Source: Syntrophomonadaceae bacterium
GTDB taxonomy: Bacteria; Bacillota; Syntrophomonadia; Syntrophomonadales; Syntrophomonadaceae
Direction of reading: 5' to 3'
Assembly: GCA_012729715.1 (NCBI GenBank)
Contig: JAAYCQ010000038.1
Location: 1-38,593 of the forward strand
Length of the DNA: 38,593 bases
In this document: piece by piece, positions 14,929 to 27,435 of the stretch
Layout of the letters: every line of letters begins with the position of its first letter
Numbering within the stretch: the first letter of the stretch is position 1
The notes under the pieces: model-generated
The model's database searches: none
Told to the model about the DNA's origin: nothing
Seen by the model: only the letters and a program-made list of their open reading frames with translations
Program-made: the position numbers and the translations under genes

Positions 14929-16428
14929 TTACTTCTTATATGTCCTTATCCCATTAGAATCCATATATATTTTTTTTGCATCCATTAATTTTTGCAGATA
15001 CGGATTGTGATCACCACCGGTATCTTCCAACAATTTCTGCAGATTAAAAAGGTCGTTATAAGTTAAATACGGATAATCCGCGCCTCCGAATTTTCCATTG
15101 GCATAGTAACAATAATACAAGTTTTTATCACTCTTAATCCACGAATTACAGGTATTCTCTATTCCCTTCAACATTTTGTCTCCCAAAAGCGTGAAAGAAG
15201 AATTTCCCGTCGTTTTTCCCAACTTATAGAGAAACCGGATTTCCTCTAGCTGATGGTTCAGAGAACTATGAGGTAATCGATATTTCCCATTTTCATGATA
15301 ATAATCCTGCACCAGCCAACCTTCTTTTCCCCGGGAATCAAGGACAGTGTAATGATGCTTATTTGCAAATTTCATAAAGAAATTCCCATATTTCAGGGCA
15401 TAATCCAAAAACCGTTGTTCATTAAACTTTTCATAGGCCTCAATAAACAAAATCCCTAAATCGGTATTAAATCTACTATCATAGAAATCAGCTTCAATTC
15501 CATAAGCATTATAAAGCCAATTACTCCTGGGCATAGTCTTCATGTAGCCTTTTGCGTCCATATTCTGAGCTTGTATGTAAAGCTGAGCATATCCCAAATC
15601 ATCTGCAGCTTTGCTTCCGCCTGTTAAAATAAAACCTGATACCACATATACCCCAGGATTTTTCCAGTAGGTGTTTTTCTGATAGGGGGAGTAGGTTTTG
15701 GGCATTATATAGTATGAACCATCCATGAGCCATCGGTTATCTTTTGCATAGCTGTACCCTACCCATATTTGCCTCATAGCCCCATAGTTCCAATCCAGCA
15801 AGGGACTATCCGATTCCAAGGCCCAGATCTCACCCCAGGTCCCAGGTTTATTTACAAAACACATCTGCAGTTGGAAACCTTCTGCCGTTTTTGTTACCAT
15901 TATTTCATGGCATAAGTCATTCATAGCCTTTACTACACCGCAGCCCAAATCCTTGTAGATAAAAGGCTGATTTAATAATATGTGCCTGTTGCCTATAGTT
16001 AAAAACAAATCCGTAACCGGGAGTCTTCCTTCGGTAAGTTCTTGTTCCTCTATCCATTTACCCATTTTTTCATTATAGTATGTAAGGGTTCCGTTTACCC
16101 CTTTGTAGGAGATTATATAAATAAGGTTTTCTCCCCCGTGTTCAAAAGTAATTTTGTCATGCCAATATAAATCCCCGTTGTTAAACTGAAATTCTCTGCT
16201 CTCTATTGTCGAATTATTCCAGTGCTGTTTTTCCCGTTTAACCGTCGCCAATTCCAATTGGAGAACGGTATGAGGGTTCTTTACTCTTTTTTGTATGTAA
16301 GCTTCTCGTTGTTGTTGAGGAGAAACAGCAACACCAAATGCTTCTGCCGTTTGAAGCTGCAGAGTAATTGCTCCTATTAATCCGGCAATAATAAAAATCG
16401 TGATTACTTTAATAAACTTCTTTCTCAT
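14929..16428 (-). CDS. Secreted or anchored D-glucuronyl C5-epimerase-like protein
   Basis: ORF 499 aa; N-terminal signal/TM; alpha/alpha-toroid-like C-terminal half (NAYGIEADFYDSRFNTDLGILFIEAYEKFNEQRFLDYALKYGNFFMKFA); family assignment by resemblance only. Confidence 0.55.
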   Translation of the reverse strand: MRKKFIKVITIFIIAGLIGAITLQLQTAEAFGVAVSPQQQREAYIQKRVKNPHTVLQLELATVKREKQHWNNSTIESREFQFNNGDLYWHDKITFEHGGENLIYIISYKGVNGTLTYYNEKMGKWIEEQELTEGRLPVTDLFLTIGNRHILLNQPFIYKDLGCGVVKAMNDLCHEIMVTKTAEGFQLQMCFVNKPGTWGEIWALESDSPLLDWNYGAMRQIWVGYSYAKDNRWLMDGSYYIMPKTYSPYQKNTYWKNPGVYVVSGFILTGGSKAADDLGYAQLYIQAQNMDAKGYMKTMPRSNWLYNAYGIEADFYDSRFNTDLGILFIEAYEKFNEQRFLDYALKYGNFFMKFANKHHYTVLDSRGKEGWLVQDYYHENGKYRLPHSSLNHQLEEIRFLYKLGKTTGNSSFTLLGDKMLKGIENTCNSWIKSDKNLYYCYYANGKFGGADYPYLTYNDLFNLQKLLEDTGGDHNPYLQKLMDAKKIYMDSNGIRTYKK

Positions 16429-18716: not shown

Positions 18717-18863
18717 TATACTCCCCCCAATATCTTAATTAACCCTTCATCTCTGGTCGACTTAGCCTGGTTTAACACTTCTTTATACTTTTGTAATAAA
18801 TAAATCGGATAATTTGCAGGGTTTTTTATGTTCCTATCGTTATTATTAATGTATGGGAAGGAG

Positions 18864-19175
18864 GTGGTCAAGGTTTGCCATGATGAGACAGAAGGTTTCC
18901 TGGCCAGGGATCCACAAGCATTCGAAGAATTGATTAACCAGTATAAAGCCTATGTTTTGCGATTATTCTACGTATTATTAATGACCCGTACGATGCCCAG
19001 GATATTGCCCAGGAAGTGTTTTTACAGCTTTACCGTTCTCTTCCCGAGTAGAAACCTGACCACCTGAAAGCCTGGATAGGCCGAATTACTACCAATAAAG
19101 CTATTGTCACTATAAGATGACGATTATTCATCAAGAGCGGGGAATAAGCATCAACCAGCTTCCCTGAGCACAAAT
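18864..19175 (+). pseudogene. Decayed ECF-type RNA polymerase sigma factor
   Basis: Frame A: CHDETEGFLARDPQAFEELINQYKAYVLRLF; a shifted frame continues RIINDPYDAQDIAQEVFLQLYRSLPE*KPDHLKAWIGRITTNKAI (sigma region 2), with a frameshift, an in-frame TAG, and no intact region 4. Confidence 0.85.
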
Positions 19176-19204
19176 TATGGCAGCGTAATAATATATATTA
19201 GTCA

Positions 19205-19244
19205 AAGGTGTCAAGGTGTTGGGAGAACCGTCCCCTGACACCTT
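19205..19244. repeat. Palindromic intergenic repeat abutting rsmE stop
   Basis: AAGGTGTCA...GGGAGAACCGTCCCC...TGACACCTT; 9-bp perfect arms. Confidence 0.75.
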
Positions 19245-20036: not shown

Positions 20037-20963
20037 TTATGCTTTGCGGGCAGCGACACCTATCCAGTCTACATCGCTTAATACTTGTTCTATAATAAAA
20101 CCATGTTTTTGCAGTTGTTGTTCTACTCCCGGCCAGCGGCTATCTACTATACCGGAACCGAAGAAATAGCCTCCGGAAGGCAATACTTTCGCGGCTTCGG
20201 GAATAAGATGGATTACTACTTCAGCAGTTATGTTGGCCAGTATCATATTAGCTTTTTTGCTATGCAAAACCTCTACGATATCTCCCTCTTCAACTTGAAT
20301 AATATCCTGCAAGCCGTTTAGAAGGATATTTTCCCGGGCCACTTTGACTGCCACATCATCAACGTCCATGGCAAATATGGAACGGGCACCTAGCTTAGCC
20401 GCACCGATGGAAAGGATACCGGAACCACATCCGGCATCTACTATATATTCCCCACCTTTGACATACTGGTCGACAAAGCGCAGGCAAAAACGGGTAGAGG
20501 CATGGATGCCAGTTCCAAAGGCCATACCGGGATCTATTTCAATTATTACTTCCCCATCCTGGGTCGGGTAATCTTCCCAGGAGGGTTTAATTACCAGCCT
20601 CTCACCTACTTTAAAGGTATGATAGTATTTTTTCCAGGACTGTTCCCAGTCCTCATTTTTTACCTCATCTATAAAGACCTTGAGCTTAGGATTATTGAAG
20701 TTATCCTTTACTGCTTGCAGGCAGGAATAGAACTCGTCCATAACCTCTTTATCTTCATGAAAATAGGCCTTTACCACCACAAATTCGTGATCCAGGAAAT
20801 CCGGTGATACCGACTGGGATTCCCAGTTCTCGGCATTAACATATTTTCGAGCTGCCTGGGGGTCTTCAATGACTACCCCGCCTGATCCCAGGCGATGAAA
20901 TATGCCGGCAATAGCTTCGACACATATGCCTTCGGTAAGTACGCTAATTTCTTTCCATTTCAT
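20037..20963 (-). CDS. prmA: Ribosomal protein L11 methyltransferase
   Basis: ORF 308 aa; DPGMAFGTGIHASTRFCLRF, VDAGCGSGILSIGAAKLGA, ANITAEVV. Confidence 0.96.
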   Translation of the reverse strand: MKWKEISVLTEGICVEAIAGIFHRLGSGGVVIEDPQAARKYVNAENWESQSVSPDFLDHEFVVVKAYFHEDKEVMDEFYSCLQAVKDNFNNPKLKVFIDEVKNEDWEQSWKKYYHTFKVGERLVIKPSWEDYPTQDGEVIIEIDPGMAFGTGIHASTRFCLRFVDQYVKGGEYIVDAGCGSGILSIGAAKLGARSIFAMDVDDVAVKVARENILLNGLQDIIQVEEGDIVEVLHSKKANMILANITAEVVIHLIPEAAKVLPSGGYFFGSGIVDSRWPGVEQQLQKHGFIIEQVLSDVDWIGVAARKA

Positions 20964-21012: not shown

Positions 21013-22155
21013 CTATCCCATTGCATCCTTGAATTTATCAAATATTCCTTTCTTACCGGCCTTCTCCTCTTCGTTGTCATCATTAAAGGCCATAAGCAGT
21101 TCCTTCTGCTTCTTACTCAAACGTTTGGGGATAGTTACTTCGATTATTACCCGCAAGTCTCCCTGGCGATGGCTGTGCAGGTGAGGTATGCCTTTGCCCC
21201 TTACCGTAATAATATCGCCTGGCTGAGTACCTTCAGGAATATTGAGCTCATGGCTGGCTCCTCCTAATAGAGGTATTTCCACCTGTGTGCCCAGCGCAGC
21301 CTGCACAAAATCAATGCTCTGGGTGGTAATCAGATTATAACCGTCTCTTTGTAGGCGCGGGTGGGGTCTTACCAGTATGGTTATATAAAGATCACCCGGC
21401 GGGCCACCACGAATACCCTGTTCGCCTTCATTTTGAATTCTTAAACGGGAACCATTGTCCACACCGGCGGGAATCCTGACCTGAATTTTACGAGTTTTTC
21501 TGACCTGACCGTTACCCCGGCAAGCAGGGCAGGGTTTTTCGATAATTTTACCCTCGCCGTGGCACCGGCTACAGGGACGTACGGTTTCAAAGCGTCCAAA
21601 CGGTGTACTCTGTACACTGCGTACCTGACCACTACCGTGGCAATCGGGACAGTTTTTAACACTGGAACCAGGTTCAGCTCCACTGCCGTTACACTTATCG
21701 CATTTTTCCACCCGCGGCAGTTCAATATCCTTTTCCATACCAAAAACTGCATCTTCAAAGTTAACCTCCAGACGCATCTCCAGGTCTGCGCCCCGCTGCG
21801 GCCCGGTGCGGGTACGCCGCCCGGCAGTGCCAGCACCTCCAAAAATAAGGTCGAAGATATCGCCAAAGCCACCCATGTCGCCAAAACCTCCGAACCCTCC
21901 GCCGAATCCCCCGGCGTTACGGGTTGGATCAAAGGCATCATGCCCAAAACGGTCATAAGCTTCCCTTTTGTTATCGTCGCTGAGTACCTCGTAGGCATCA
22001 CTTACCTCTTTGAACTTATCCGCCGCATTGGGATCATCCCGATTAACATCAGGATGATACTTACGCGCCATCTGGCGGTAAGCTTTTTTTATTTCCTCCG
22101 CCGTGGCATTTTTAGATACTCCCAAAACCTCATAGAAATCTCTTTTTGTGGCCAT
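21013..22155 (-). CDS. dnaJ: Chaperone protein DnaJ
   Basis: ORF 380 aa; J-domain with HPD, G/F region, four CxxCxGxG zinc repeats. Confidence 0.98.
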
Positions 22156-22211: not shown

Positions 22212-22332
22212 ACTATCCTCCTCCCAAGTCCAGGGTCCCTGTATATTTTATGCCCTAACCAGGGGCAAATATTTTAATTCTTAAACTATTAAATTATAGT
22301 TTAATAAATACTGGCCTGGCAAGGGTTTCACT

Positions 22333-24144
22333 TTATTTGTCATCATCATCGGGAATGTTATAATCAGCATCAAACACCTCATCGGAACCCGGCTCCGAGT
22401 CTTGTTGCTGGTTTACGTTTTCATACATTTTGGCCGTAAAAGCATAAATGGCTTCAGTCAGGGCTTCAGTTTTAGCTTCGATAGCGCCCATATCATCCCC
22501 TTGTAAGGCCTGGGTAAGTTCCTCTTTGGCAGCCTCAATTTTGCCCTTGGATTCCTCATCTATCTTATCGGCAAATTCTTTCAGGGTTTTATCAGCCTGG
22601 TAAATCATGCTATCAGCATTATTTCTGGTCTCAATTTCTTTCAGGCGTATTTCATCCTCTTCCGCAAACTTCTCGGCATCTTGAACCATTTTTTCGATTT
22701 CATCATCGCTAAGTCCGCTGGAGGAAGTAATGGTAATCCTCTGTTCTTTATTGGTGGCCAGGTCTTTGGCGGTTACATGAACTATTCCGTTAACATCAAT
22801 ATCAAAGGTAACTTCTACCTGTGGTACACCCCGGGGTGCAGAGGGAATACCGGTAAGCTGGAACCGGCCCAGGGTTACGTTATGCTGCGCCATTTTCCTT
22901 TCACCCTGCAATACATGAATATCTACCGAAGTCTGGTTGTCAGCCGCAGTGGTAAATACCTGGCTCTTGGCCGTAGGTATAGTAGTATTACGTTCAATAA
23001 TTTGGGTAAAGACACCACCCAGGGTTTCAATTCCCAGAGATAAAGGGGTAACATCCAATAATACCACATCGGTAACTTCCCCCGACAGCACCCCAGCCTG
23101 AATAGCTGCACCAACAGCTACTACTTCATCCGGGTTAATACCCTTGAAGGGTTCTTTGCCGGTGAAATTCTTAATAGCCTCCTGGACTGCCGGTATTCTG
23201 GTCGATCCTCCCACCAGTATCACTTTATCAATCTGGGTAGATTTCAAACCCGAGTCTTTCATAGCCTGACGCAGGGGTCCCATAGTTTTTTCCACCAGGT
23301 CGGCGGTCATTTCATTAAATTTAGCGCGGCTAAAGGTGCGCTCCAGATGCAGGGGACCATCCTGGGTAGCCGTTATATAAGGGATATTTATATCGGTACT
23401 CATTACCCCGGATAATTCATGTTTAGCTTTCTCCGCTGCCTCTTTCAGGCGGTGCATAGCCATTTTGTCACTACGCAAATCAATGCCATTATCTTTTTTA
23501 AACTCATCAACCAGCCAATCAATGATTTTATTATCAAAATCATCTCCGCCCAAACGGTTATTCCCACTGGTGGCTTTTACTTCAAATACTCCATCCCCAA
23601 TTTCCAGTATGGAGACGTCAAAGGTTCCTCCACCCAGGTCAAAAACCAGAATAGTCTGGGTCTCATCTTTATCCAAACCATAAGCCAGGGCGGCTGCGGT
23701 AGGCTCGTTTATAATCCTTAAAACTTCTAAGCCTGCTATTTTACCGGCATCTTTAGTAGCCTGACGCTGGGAGTCGGTGAAATAGGCCGGAACTGTTATT
23801 ACTGCCTGAGTTATTTTCTCGCCCAGATAAGCTTCAGCATCGGTTTTTAGCTTTTGCAAGACCATAGCGGATATTTCCTGGGGCGTATATTTCTTACCGT
23901 CAATATCTACTTTATAATCAGTACCCATCTTTCTTTTTATGGATACTACAGTTCTTTCAGGGTTGGTAATAGCCTGCCGCCTGGCAATACGCCCCACCAA
24001 TCTCTCATTAGATTTGGAAAAACCAACTACAGAAGGGGTAGTACGTTCACCCTCGGCATTAGCAATAACGGTCGCTTCACTGCCTTCCATGACAGCAATG
24101 CAGGAGTTGGTAGTACCCAGGTCAATCCCGACAACCCTACTCAT
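22333..24144 (-). CDS. dnaK: Chaperone protein DnaK (Hsp70)
   Basis: ORF 603 aa; [33 protein letters not shown]-terminal [12 protein letters not shown]. Confidence 0.98.
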
Positions 24145-24185: not shown

Positions 24186-24728
24186 TTATTTGCTCACCTT
24201 CACCAGACTAGGCCTTATAACCCGGCCATGAAGGATATACCCGGTTTGAAATTCCTCAATAATAGTATTTTCAGAATGCTCATCGCTTTCCTCCACTATC
24301 AGGGGCTGGTGATACTGGGGATCAAAAGCCTGCCCCAGGGCTTCTATCGGCTCTACTCCTTCATTCTTAATTATTTCCTGCAGACTTCTGGTAATCATCT
24401 CTACACCCTTGCTCAAACCTTCCAGATCCTTGCTATTGTCAAACTGAGCCAGGGCCCTTTCCAAATCATCAATTACCGGCAGCAGTTTTTGGATTAAAGG
24501 AAGAAGAGCAAATTTACTGTATTCTTCTTTATCCCGGGCGGCCCGCTTTTTGAAATTCTCCAATTCGGCCAGGGATCTCAGATAGAGATCATAGTTCTTT
24601 TGACTTTCCTGCTGACTCTTTTCCAGTTCACTTTTCAGGGCAGTGATTTCATCCACTTCGGTTTCCAAATCAACTGGTTCAGTTCCCGGATTCTCTTCTT
24701 GCATTTCCATAATATCCTTGCTTTCCAT
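24186..24728 (-). CDS. grpE: Nucleotide exchange factor GrpE
   Basis: ORF 180 aa; YLRSLAELENFKKRAARDKEE, GYILHGRVIRPSLVKVSK. Confidence 0.95.
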   Translation of the reverse strand: MESKDIMEMQEENPGTEPVDLETEVDEITALKSELEKSQQESQKNYDLYLRSLAELENFKKRAARDKEEYSKFALLPLIQKLLPVIDDLERALAQFDNSKDLEGLSKGVEMITRSLQEIIKNEGVEPIEALGQAFDPQYHQPLIVEESDEHSENTIIEEFQTGYILHGRVIRPSLVKVSK

Positions 24729-24743
24729 GGATATTAATCACCT

Positions 24744-26309
24744 CTATTCCATGATATCTATATTGTCAGGGTCTAATTCATCATTTTTCATTTTGATGAC
24801 CGTATTTATGCGCAATATTGCAACCGCCACTTCCCCGGCAGTTTTAATAGCATAGCGCTTTACCGGAGCCGGGTCAAATATGCCGTTTTCCAACACGTCT
24901 ACCAGTTCACCACTGTCGGCATCAAAGGATATGCTATTCTTATCAGCTTTCTTTTGGGCAGCAATTATGTTACCCAGTTTATCCAGGGGGTTAAAACCGG
25001 AATTGCCGGCCATACAACTAAAGGGTTTTAAGAGTGCTTCCCGCAAGGCCAGTATGCCATAAGAACTCATCCCTCCGGCTTCCCGGGCCAATTCCTCCAG
25101 TTTGCCTGCCAGCCAGATTTCCAGGGCTCCCCCTCCAGGTACAATACCACCACGCAAGGCTGCCTGCAGGGCAGATGCCGCATCCCGGGCCATACGCTCT
25201 CTCTCATCTACAACCTCCCCGGTGGAAGCACCTACAATCAGAGTAGCCAAATTTTCACCCTTGCCGCCATAAACGCAGGTATGTTTAAGTTTTTCATCTA
25301 CTTTTACTAACTGGGCATAACCCAGGCAACTCTTTAAGGTTTCTAGCGACCGGTTCAGGGTGCTAGCTTTTATCTTGCGGGCTCCGCTATGCCGGCAAAG
25401 TTTTTCCAATTCCCGTGAGGAAACCCTCTGTAGAGCCATTATCCCGGCTTCGGTGAGTATCTCTTCACCCAGACTATCTATACTCCTATCCACTACCACC
25501 AAATTAACTCCCAGTTGGATAAGCTGATTTAAACCCTCTTCATACTGCTGACGAGCCTGGAGATAATATTGAAAACCAGACTCCGTCTTCATGGCTTCCC
25601 GGTCTAAATCCTCGGGCCGCAGATCGTCATCTACTACTAAAATTACAGCATTCTCAATAACGGCAGGCATTTCTTTGTTCACGGGTTGTTTGTTTAACAA
25701 TACCCCTTTAAAAACCTGGTTTTCTGTGCCTTCGCGGGCATTAACCGTATCCGCAAATTTGAAATCGCTGTCCAACAATTTATCAATACCTATCAGTCTG
25801 GCACCTTCCACCACCAATCCGGCCAGATCCCGCTGCCCCCTCCCGGCAATAAGAGCAATGTCAAAAAGCCTCTCATCTTCCAGGGATTCGATTTTCAGGC
25901 TGGTTTCTTCTATATTATTCAAGGTCACCTTAATACCGTGGTTAATCCCTTCTATAACCCGGGTAACTGGTACTCCTTTTAAAACCTGGGCGGTTCCTTC
26001 AGCCACCAAAGCCCCGGCAATTATGGTAGCAGTGGTAGTGCCGTCACCTACTTCTACCTGCTGGGCGCGGGCAGCATTGATAATCATCTGGGCTACCGGG
26101 TGGGTGACATCCATATATTTTAGTATGGTTACCCCATCGTTGGTTACCACTACGTCACCAAAACGATCCACCATCATTATATCCAGACCCCGGGGGCCAA
26201 TGGTACCCTCAACGGTCGATGATATAATCCTGGCCACACTGGTATTGGTTAACAGGGTTTGAAATTTATCATCTTTTTCCTGATTACCGGCAAGGAGCTT
26301 ATCGGGCAT
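24744..26309 (-). CDS. Archaeal-type (group II/III) chaperonin, thermosome/TCP-1 related
   Basis: ORF 521 aa; TVEGTIGPRGLDIMMVD, VVTNDGVTILKYMDVTHPVAQMI, VEVGDGTTTATIIAGALV, GGIVPGGGALE, DPAPVKRYAIKTAGEVAVAILRINTVI; thermosome-like rather than GroEL-like motifs. Confidence 0.93.
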   Translation of the reverse strand: MPDKLLAGNQEKDDKFQTLLTNTSVARIISSTVEGTIGPRGLDIMMVDRFGDVVVTNDGVTILKYMDVTHPVAQMIINAARAQQVEVGDGTTTATIIAGALVAEGTAQVLKGVPVTRVIEGINHGIKVTLNNIEETSLKIESLEDERLFDIALIAGRGQRDLAGLVVEGARLIGIDKLLDSDFKFADTVNAREGTENQVFKGVLLNKQPVNKEMPAVIENAVILVVDDDLRPEDLDREAMKTESGFQYYLQARQQYEEGLNQLIQLGVNLVVVDRSIDSLGEEILTEAGIMALQRVSSRELEKLCRHSGARKIKASTLNRSLETLKSCLGYAQLVKVDEKLKHTCVYGGKGENLATLIVGASTGEVVDERERMARDAASALQAALRGGIVPGGGALEIWLAGKLEELAREAGGMSSYGILALREALLKPFSCMAGNSGFNPLDKLGNIIAAQKKADKNSISFDADSGELVDVLENGIFDPAPVKRYAIKTAGEVAVAILRINTVIKMKNDELDPDNIDIME

Positions 26310-26323
26310 AATTACCTCCCTGG

Positions 26324-27349
26324 TTAAAAGCGTTTTTTTATTATTTCTTCAATGATGTCACGAACTGAATCCAGGCTGCCCACAGCCTTCCAGTACTCCA
26401 TGCGTACGGGACCCATTAAACCCATTTTCCCCTGTTCCCCCTGTGTTTGGTAGCTAGCAAAAACGAAACTTAAGTCTTTAAAGTCTTCGGATTGGTTTTC
26501 CTGCCCAATCCTGATATCAACTTCATCACCTAAAGATTCCGGCAACATTCCCATCAGCTGAGTTTCCTCTTCCAAAAAAGCCAGTATCTTTTTAAGTTTA
26601 TCAACATCCTTAAACTCGGGTTCGTTCATTATGTTAAGGGCTCCGCTGATAATTACCCTTTCTTCACTAGAATTATCCAGCAGACTCTCTATCGCTTCCA
26701 GAGTGCGATCAATCACCTTGCGGCGTTGCTTTAGTTCATCCCTCAACTGTTGCAAATCGCTGCGCTGTATCTCAGTTATTTTCTTCCCGGCCAAAACCTG
26801 GTTAAACATGCGGCCAATTAACTCCATTTCCGGAGCGGTAATTGACTGCGGTACTTCAATATTGCGATGCATAACTACACCCAGGTCAGTTACCAATAAT
26901 ACCAGGGCCTTGCCCGGTTCAATAGGGACAAGCTGGAGGTATTTAAACTTGCTCAGACGAACTGAGGGAATAATAACAAAGGAAGTATATTTGGTTATTT
27001 GGGCCAGGAAATGGCCGATTTTTTGTACCAGGTCATTTACTTCCTGGAAACTATCATCCAGCAGGTGCAGCAAAACCTGAGTCTCTTTTTCATCCAGGTT
27101 CTCCTGTTCCATCATACAATCGACATAATAGCGGAAACCCTTCTGGGAAGGAATACGGCCAGCCGAAGTATGCGGCTGTTCCAGGTAACCCATGTCCTCC
27201 AGATCGGACATTTCATTACGTACCGTTGCCGCGCTTATCTTCAGACCATGTTTTTTAACCATGGCCCGGGAGCCAACTGGTTCCGCGGTTTCCACATAAT
27301 CCTTAATAATTGACTCCAGAATCAATTTTTTTCTTTCATCCAGTGTCAT
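26324..27349 (-). CDS. hrcA: Heat-inducible transcription repressor HrcA
   Basis: [68 protein letters not shown]; start reset to ATG at 27349 after SD AGGTGAGG. Confidence 0.97.
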
Positions 27350-27365
27350 TATCCTCACCTGCCTG

Positions 27366-27392
27366 TTAGCACTCTCTCTTATTGAGTGCTAA
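27366..27392 (-). promoter_or_regulatory. CIRCE operator (HrcA binding site)
   Basis: TTAGCACTC-N9-GAGTGCTAA, exact match to the CIRCE consensus. Confidence 0.97.
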
Positions 27393-27406: not shown

Positions 27407-27435
27407 AAAATAGCACCTGTTTTATCCTTTGTCAA
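27407..27435 (-). promoter_or_regulatory. Sigma-A promoter of the hrcA-dnaK operon
   Basis: Minus strand TTGACA-N17-TATTTT, immediately upstream of CIRCE. Confidence 0.8.

Follow-up and report, generated by a model that had tools for sequence, protein, structure and literature searches.

In the dnaK operon of an uncultured Syntrophomonas-type bacterium we find a gene whose product is a Group III chaperonin, the bacterial, thermosome-like kind, as phylogeny, fold and sequence features agree. At a probability of roughly 0.87, we consider this protein to be an ATP-driven, self-closing double-ring chaperonin that is made together with the Hsp70 team under HrcA, beside GroEL/GroES. Group III chaperonins, their position in the dnaK operon, a solved structure and the idea of a hand-off from DnaK have already been published (PMC5635000, PMC5220055, PMC5904260).

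Operon layout and predicted HrcA control

The gene, here called cpn, is a 521-aa open reading frame at 24744-26309 of the window, by which we mean the whole 38,593-nucleotide stretch of DNA that was analysed. The initial annotation had these coordinates exactly right and gave no strand, which is minus. The thermosome/TCP-1-type motifs quoted there are present in the translation, which matches Pfam Cpn60_TCP1 over nearly its full length (2.3e-110, residues 29-508). Pfam matches of all neighbours likewise bear out the proposed order hrcA-cpn-grpE-dnaK-dnaJ, entirely on the minus strand: the heat-shock repressor gene hrcA (26324-27358; Pfam HrcA), grpE (24186-24728; GrpE), dnaK (22333-24144; DnaK) and dnaJ (21013-22155; DnaJ), with prmA (20037-20963, minus strand) as the next gene downstream of dnaJ and a gene for an RsmE-type methyltransferase after it. 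The spacers are as short as had been claimed, with each value one less than the 15 and 16 nt given: 14 nt separate hrcA from cpn and 15 nt separate cpn from grpE, and a ribosome-binding-site-like sequence precedes the downstream gene at both. The true start of hrcA is probably the ATG at 27349, because the alignment of relatives begins only at residue 3-4.

Upstream of hrcA, a motif scan found an exact CIRCE operator, TTAGCACTC-N9-GAGTGCTAA, at 27366-27392, where 0.01 occurrences would be expected by chance in the window. Just upstream of it lies a sigma-70-type (sigma-A-like) promoter-like site, TTGACA-17-TATTTT (27407-27435, minus strand), in which a TG precedes the second hexamer. This is a consensus match only, and since the promoter scan of the window gave as many consensus matches in total as chance predicts, it is the position of the site, not the match, that lends it weight. 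The CIRCE thus stands between a promoter-like site and the first gene of an operon that includes hrcA itself, which is how an HrcA/CIRCE regulon is recognised. Exact CIRCE elements are common among relatives: 28 of the 29 loci L003-L031 have one, the remaining locus ending shortly beyond hrcA, and of the 62 named Group III loci that were scanned, 54 do.

Through this operator, HrcA would repress the operon, and heat or protein damage would release it, upon which cpn would be made together with GrpE, DnaK and DnaJ. Operon logic leads us to expect both heat induction of cpn and one common transcript. Separate transcription from the dnaK operon had been named beforehand as evidence against this arrangement; a scan of the hrcA-cpn and cpn-grpE spacers found no terminator-like sites. 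Further downstream, a promoter-like site within the 177-nt gap between dnaK and dnaJ (TTGCCA-18-TATAAT, 22293-22322, minus strand; 11/12 consensus, a consensus match only) may be a second promoter, and dnaJ may therefore also be made separately.

Two other regions of the window deserve mention in their own right. At 18828-19240 on the plus strand, inspection by eye suggests a decayed gene for an ECF-type sigma factor, with region 2 motifs spread over two frames and interrupted by stops; the longest open piece gave no Pfam match. At 14929-16428 on the minus strand, directly downstream of an MtaB-like gene, a 499-aa protein without a Pfam match is encoded, which we take, as a lead only, to resemble heparan-type C5-epimerases.

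Family assignment

Curated NCBIfam models for both thermosomes and GroEL score cpn below their cut-offs, as is expected for a third group: the best-matching thermosome models gave 308.7 bits against a cut-off of 671.1, 300.4 against 450 and 290.5 against 400, and the GroEL model gave 139.1 against 582.1. Among solved chains, the best sequence matches are 9RWQ (1.6e-183) and 5X9U (5.7e-139), with thermosomes at about 1e-68. A tree of 98 rows resolves Group III, archaeal thermosomes and GroEL as one group each with 100% support, the Group III clade comprising 61 rows (100% SH-aLRT), and a careful 37-row tree agrees (Group III clade support 100/99). These trees do not include CCT, and the three groups are connected by long branches, which makes the order in which they split less certain. 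In the larger tree, cpn nests in its genus, then in the Syntrophomonadaceae, and then in Bacillota Group III, its nearest named relative being Syntrophomonas sp. UBA5432 at 92% identity. The initial annotation had called the protein an archaeal-type Group III chaperonin and proposed placing it against GroEL and thermosomes; its reading is borne out by phylogeny, fold and sequence features, with cpn outside GroEL and within the Group III clade.

Could this bacterium instead have acquired cpn recently from an archaeon, as a thermosome gene? The thermosome-like motifs, the lid and the fact that thermosome models match best among NCBIfam models would fit such an origin, which we nevertheless regard as highly improbable, given how far those models stay below their cut-offs, the clade of their own formed by the archaeal rows, the stepwise nesting of cpn within genus, family and Bacillota Group III, and its divergence, which follows that of hrcA from genome to genome (r = 0.84). 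That cpn is a divergent GroEL is scarcely credible at all: the two share a superfamily and GroEL models match weakly, but the score is far below the cut-off, cpn lies in a separate clade and has a predicted lid helix, and a true GroEL is encoded elsewhere in the genome. Both ideas were rejected on profile scores and tree. An origin of Group III as an offshoot of Methanomassiliicoccales thermosomes is disfavoured by the tree, its log-likelihood being 23.5 lower, with an AU p of 0.055, just short of rejection.

Predicted structure and comparison with known chaperonins

The AlphaFold2 model of cpn, made from 50 relatives, has a mean pLDDT of 90.2, and in the PDB it is matched best by 5X9V and 5X9U, both Group III structures (TM 0.89-0.95), Group II structures reaching about 0.80-0.89. 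The built-in lid protrusion, for which the initial annotation had suggested a structural check, is predicted in the apical domain as helix 243-265, and in the lid alignment it is 3-4 residues shorter than that of thermosome alpha. R157 and D376, which correspond to the catalytic residues Arg155 and Asp373 of Ch-CPN from Carboxydothermus hydrogenoformans (PMC5635000), are invariant in 50/50 aligned sequences; the GDGTT and GGG motifs are intact, and a six-residue gap relative to thermosome alpha 1A6D falls at the nucleotide-sensing loop, before R157. At the lid tip, the hydrophobic residues L237, F243, Y246 and F253 (Ch-CPN numbering) have been called strictly conserved (PMC5635000). In cpn, two of these are kept as F246 and Y249, while L237 is replaced by M240 and F253 by Y256, both conservatively, and family-wide neither position is strict, with L in 40 and F in 35 of the 50 aligned sequences. 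As departures from the published pattern, the two substitutions weigh against our main reading.

Ch-CPN (5X9U, 5X9V; PMC5635000), at 43-44% identity, is as such the closest structural counterpart, sharing with cpn the ATPase residues, the missing nucleotide-sensing loop and the built-in lid; the window protein differs in its length of 521 aa, its uncultured Syntrophomonas-type source, and M240 and Y256 at the lid tip. By sequence, ACIII (9RWQ; PMC12696368) matches cpn better than any other solved chain; it is a resurrected Group III ancestor and hence a reconstructed, not a natural, protein. The molecule name of 9RWQ in the PDB reads 'Ancestral Group II Chaperonin (ACII)', as opposed to ACIII in the paper. 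Group II thermosomes (Thermococcus KS-1, 1Q3S; Thermoplasma, 1A6D) have in common with cpn the domain layout, a built-in lid and the absence of GroES. They differ in belonging to a separate clade at about 30% identity, in their longer lid, in having the nucleotide-sensing loop, and in having prefoldin as a partner in archaea.

It should be noted that assignment to Group III would also entail a double ring of eight subunits and a non-cooperative ATPase; ring assembly, ATPase activity, lid closure and folding by cpn would follow by analogy with the tested relative (PMC5635000). The protein would then act as an ATP-driven double-ring folding chamber, and because the lid is built into each subunit, it would have no need of GroES.

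GroEL/GroES and prefoldin in the same genome

No GroEL/GroES had been seen in the window by the initial annotation, and there is none; a search of the whole genome located both on contig C7 (G000:C7, L002), GroEL with 543 aa and GroES with 96 aa; an exact CIRCE precedes groES. A Group III chaperonin and GroEL/GroES are thus confirmed to occur side by side in one genome, with the same repressor predicted for both, and a separate HrcA-controlled groES-groEL operon would run in parallel with the dnaK operon. Although the chaperonin fold is common to both, this GroEL differs from cpn in needing GroES, in its clade and locus, and in sequence (26-33% identity over matched stretches). A PF00118 search of 27 bacterial genomes with a Group III gene showed GroEL as well in 26 of them. 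G446, considered as a Group III carrier without GroEL, was set aside, as its full DnaK is missing too and the assembly is most likely incomplete. A prefoldin_2 search gave no match in the window's genome, and a match in each of four archaeal controls.

Distribution, loss and selection

Of 399 genomes sampled evenly across the phylum, 123 (31%) carry a Group III gene, all matches being 1e-139 or better, the one exception being the second half of the gene that is broken in G024. The initial annotation had spoken of a rare family, and while the family is indeed a known one, rarity is too strong a word within this phylum. All 30 family loci have cpn in the dnaK operon, in the same gene order. Among 63 named Group III loci, hrcA lies directly upstream in 58 and grpE directly downstream in 54, contig ends explaining two of the upstream and three of the downstream exceptions; Group III genes were earlier reported to lie in the dnaK operon in every case but one (PMC5635000). 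Four loci (L068, L072, L087 and L088) show hrcA-cpn-dnaJ instead, and dnaK-grpE, where it could be located, lies at another place in the genome, and in L071 and L108 the Group III gene stands apart altogether. The latter belongs to Candidatus Cyanaurora vandensis (Cyanobacteriota), whose long-branched Group III chaperonin (L108:4995-6512) lies outside any dnaK operon, and which has two GroELs beside it.

Many genomes of the window's order are without cpn and still have hrcA and grpE adjacent, 160-670 nt apart. On the tree of neighbouring genes, presence and absence of cpn change 10 times, at least 5 of these changes being forced by well supported branches, counts that alone do not tell gain from loss. 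A decayed Group III remnant with a large internal deletion does, however, lie between hrcA and grpE in G039 (L053, 728-1371), and the copies of G024 and G031 are disrupted by frameshifts; together, these show that loss occurred, and it did so repeatedly in sister species keeping hrcA-grpE. Many close relatives lack cpn or have only a broken copy, so the window's family can do without it, a point against our main reading. G024 belongs to the window's family and is assembled in a single contig; its frameshift falls at an (AT)9 tract within the Group III coding sequence (L032, minus strand, near 1502), and the split may reflect decay, phase variation or a sequencing error. A sister genus without a Group III chaperonin was seen to carry a second full-length DnaK of a lineage unlike the operon copy (L235, G006:C100).

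Do these losses mean that cpn is a dispensable stress reserve that duplicates GroEL, housed in the operon as behind a convenient heat-shock promoter and slowly being lost family-wide? We hold this to be possible, at clearly less than even odds. The changes on the operon tree, the clean absences with hrcA-grpE intact, and the remnant and frameshifted copies all agree with it, as does the report that few proteins of Syntrophomonas wolfei are as abundant as GroEL/GroES (PMC4324140). A mere reserve sits less well with the retention of the gene in close to a third of the sampled genomes of the phylum, and with the strong purifying selection acting on it in the window's genus, where dN/dS is about 0.08 (0.08-0.12), close to that of hrcA.

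Relationship with the Hsp70 team

The position of cpn within the dnaK operon also raises the question whether it works specifically downstream of DnaK/DnaJ/GrpE as their partner, receiving clients from DnaK or DnaJ physically at its lid tips. This hypothesis has been proposed before (PMC5635000, PMC5220055), and the grpE gene directly downstream in most named loci would agree with it, but we judge it rather doubtful: in four loci cpn stays with hrcA and dnaJ while dnaK-grpE is elsewhere, in two it is wholly apart, dnaK operons without cpn occur in many sister species, and shared control alone accounts for the linkage. We are just as tentative about the more specific idea that transfer at the lid tip replaces the absent prefoldin, as reported for Hsc70 with CCT, with which the result of the prefoldin_2 search is consistent. 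The four loci that keep cpn with hrcA and dnaJ and not with dnaK suggest that shared control, and perhaps DnaJ, may count for more than a contact with DnaK. Both this hand-off and the redundancy with GroEL refine our main reading of an HrcA-controlled, self-closing chaperonin, and the weight given to them is therefore not exclusive of the figure given for it.

A comparable linkage in archaea bears on the same question. In Thermoplasmatota relatives of locus L130, all 38 grpE loci examined have a Group II thermosome gene immediately upstream of grpE-dnaK (L130:4983-9693; L185-L214; L227-L234), with a thermosome-grpE distance of usually 60-75 nt in the closer relatives, while among other archaeal thermosome loci 0 of 16 lie beside grpE-dnaK. 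As mcrA is present in 12/12 tested genomes of these relatives, we infer them to be Methanomassiliicoccales. In a quick tree, their DnaK falls among other archaeal DnaK sequences (100% support), as does their thermosome among archaeal sequences in the 98-row tree, so that the archaeal linkage appears to be independent of the bacterial one, in favour of the hand-off. A transfer of the whole operon between these archaea and Bacillota was considered and is unlikely, given the grouping of their DnaK. We found no earlier report of the archaeal thermosome-grpE-dnaK linkage in the open-access literature searched, and it may be new. It is conceivable, if unlikely, that lidded chaperonins became linked to grpE-dnaK at least twice, as Group III in Bacillota and as Group II in Methanomassiliicoccales-type archaea, and that this reflects a shared prokaryotic hand-off of clients from Hsp70 or its J-protein, in the bacterial case without prefoldin.

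Taken on its own, the window's cpn extends Group III by one member, encoded by an uncultured bacterium of syntroph type. The archaeal thermosome-grpE-dnaK linkage provides a comparison case for the proposed coupling to Hsp70, and with sister species that do or do not carry cpn, and culturable carriers such as Paenibacillus, the function of these chaperonins is measurable by removal.
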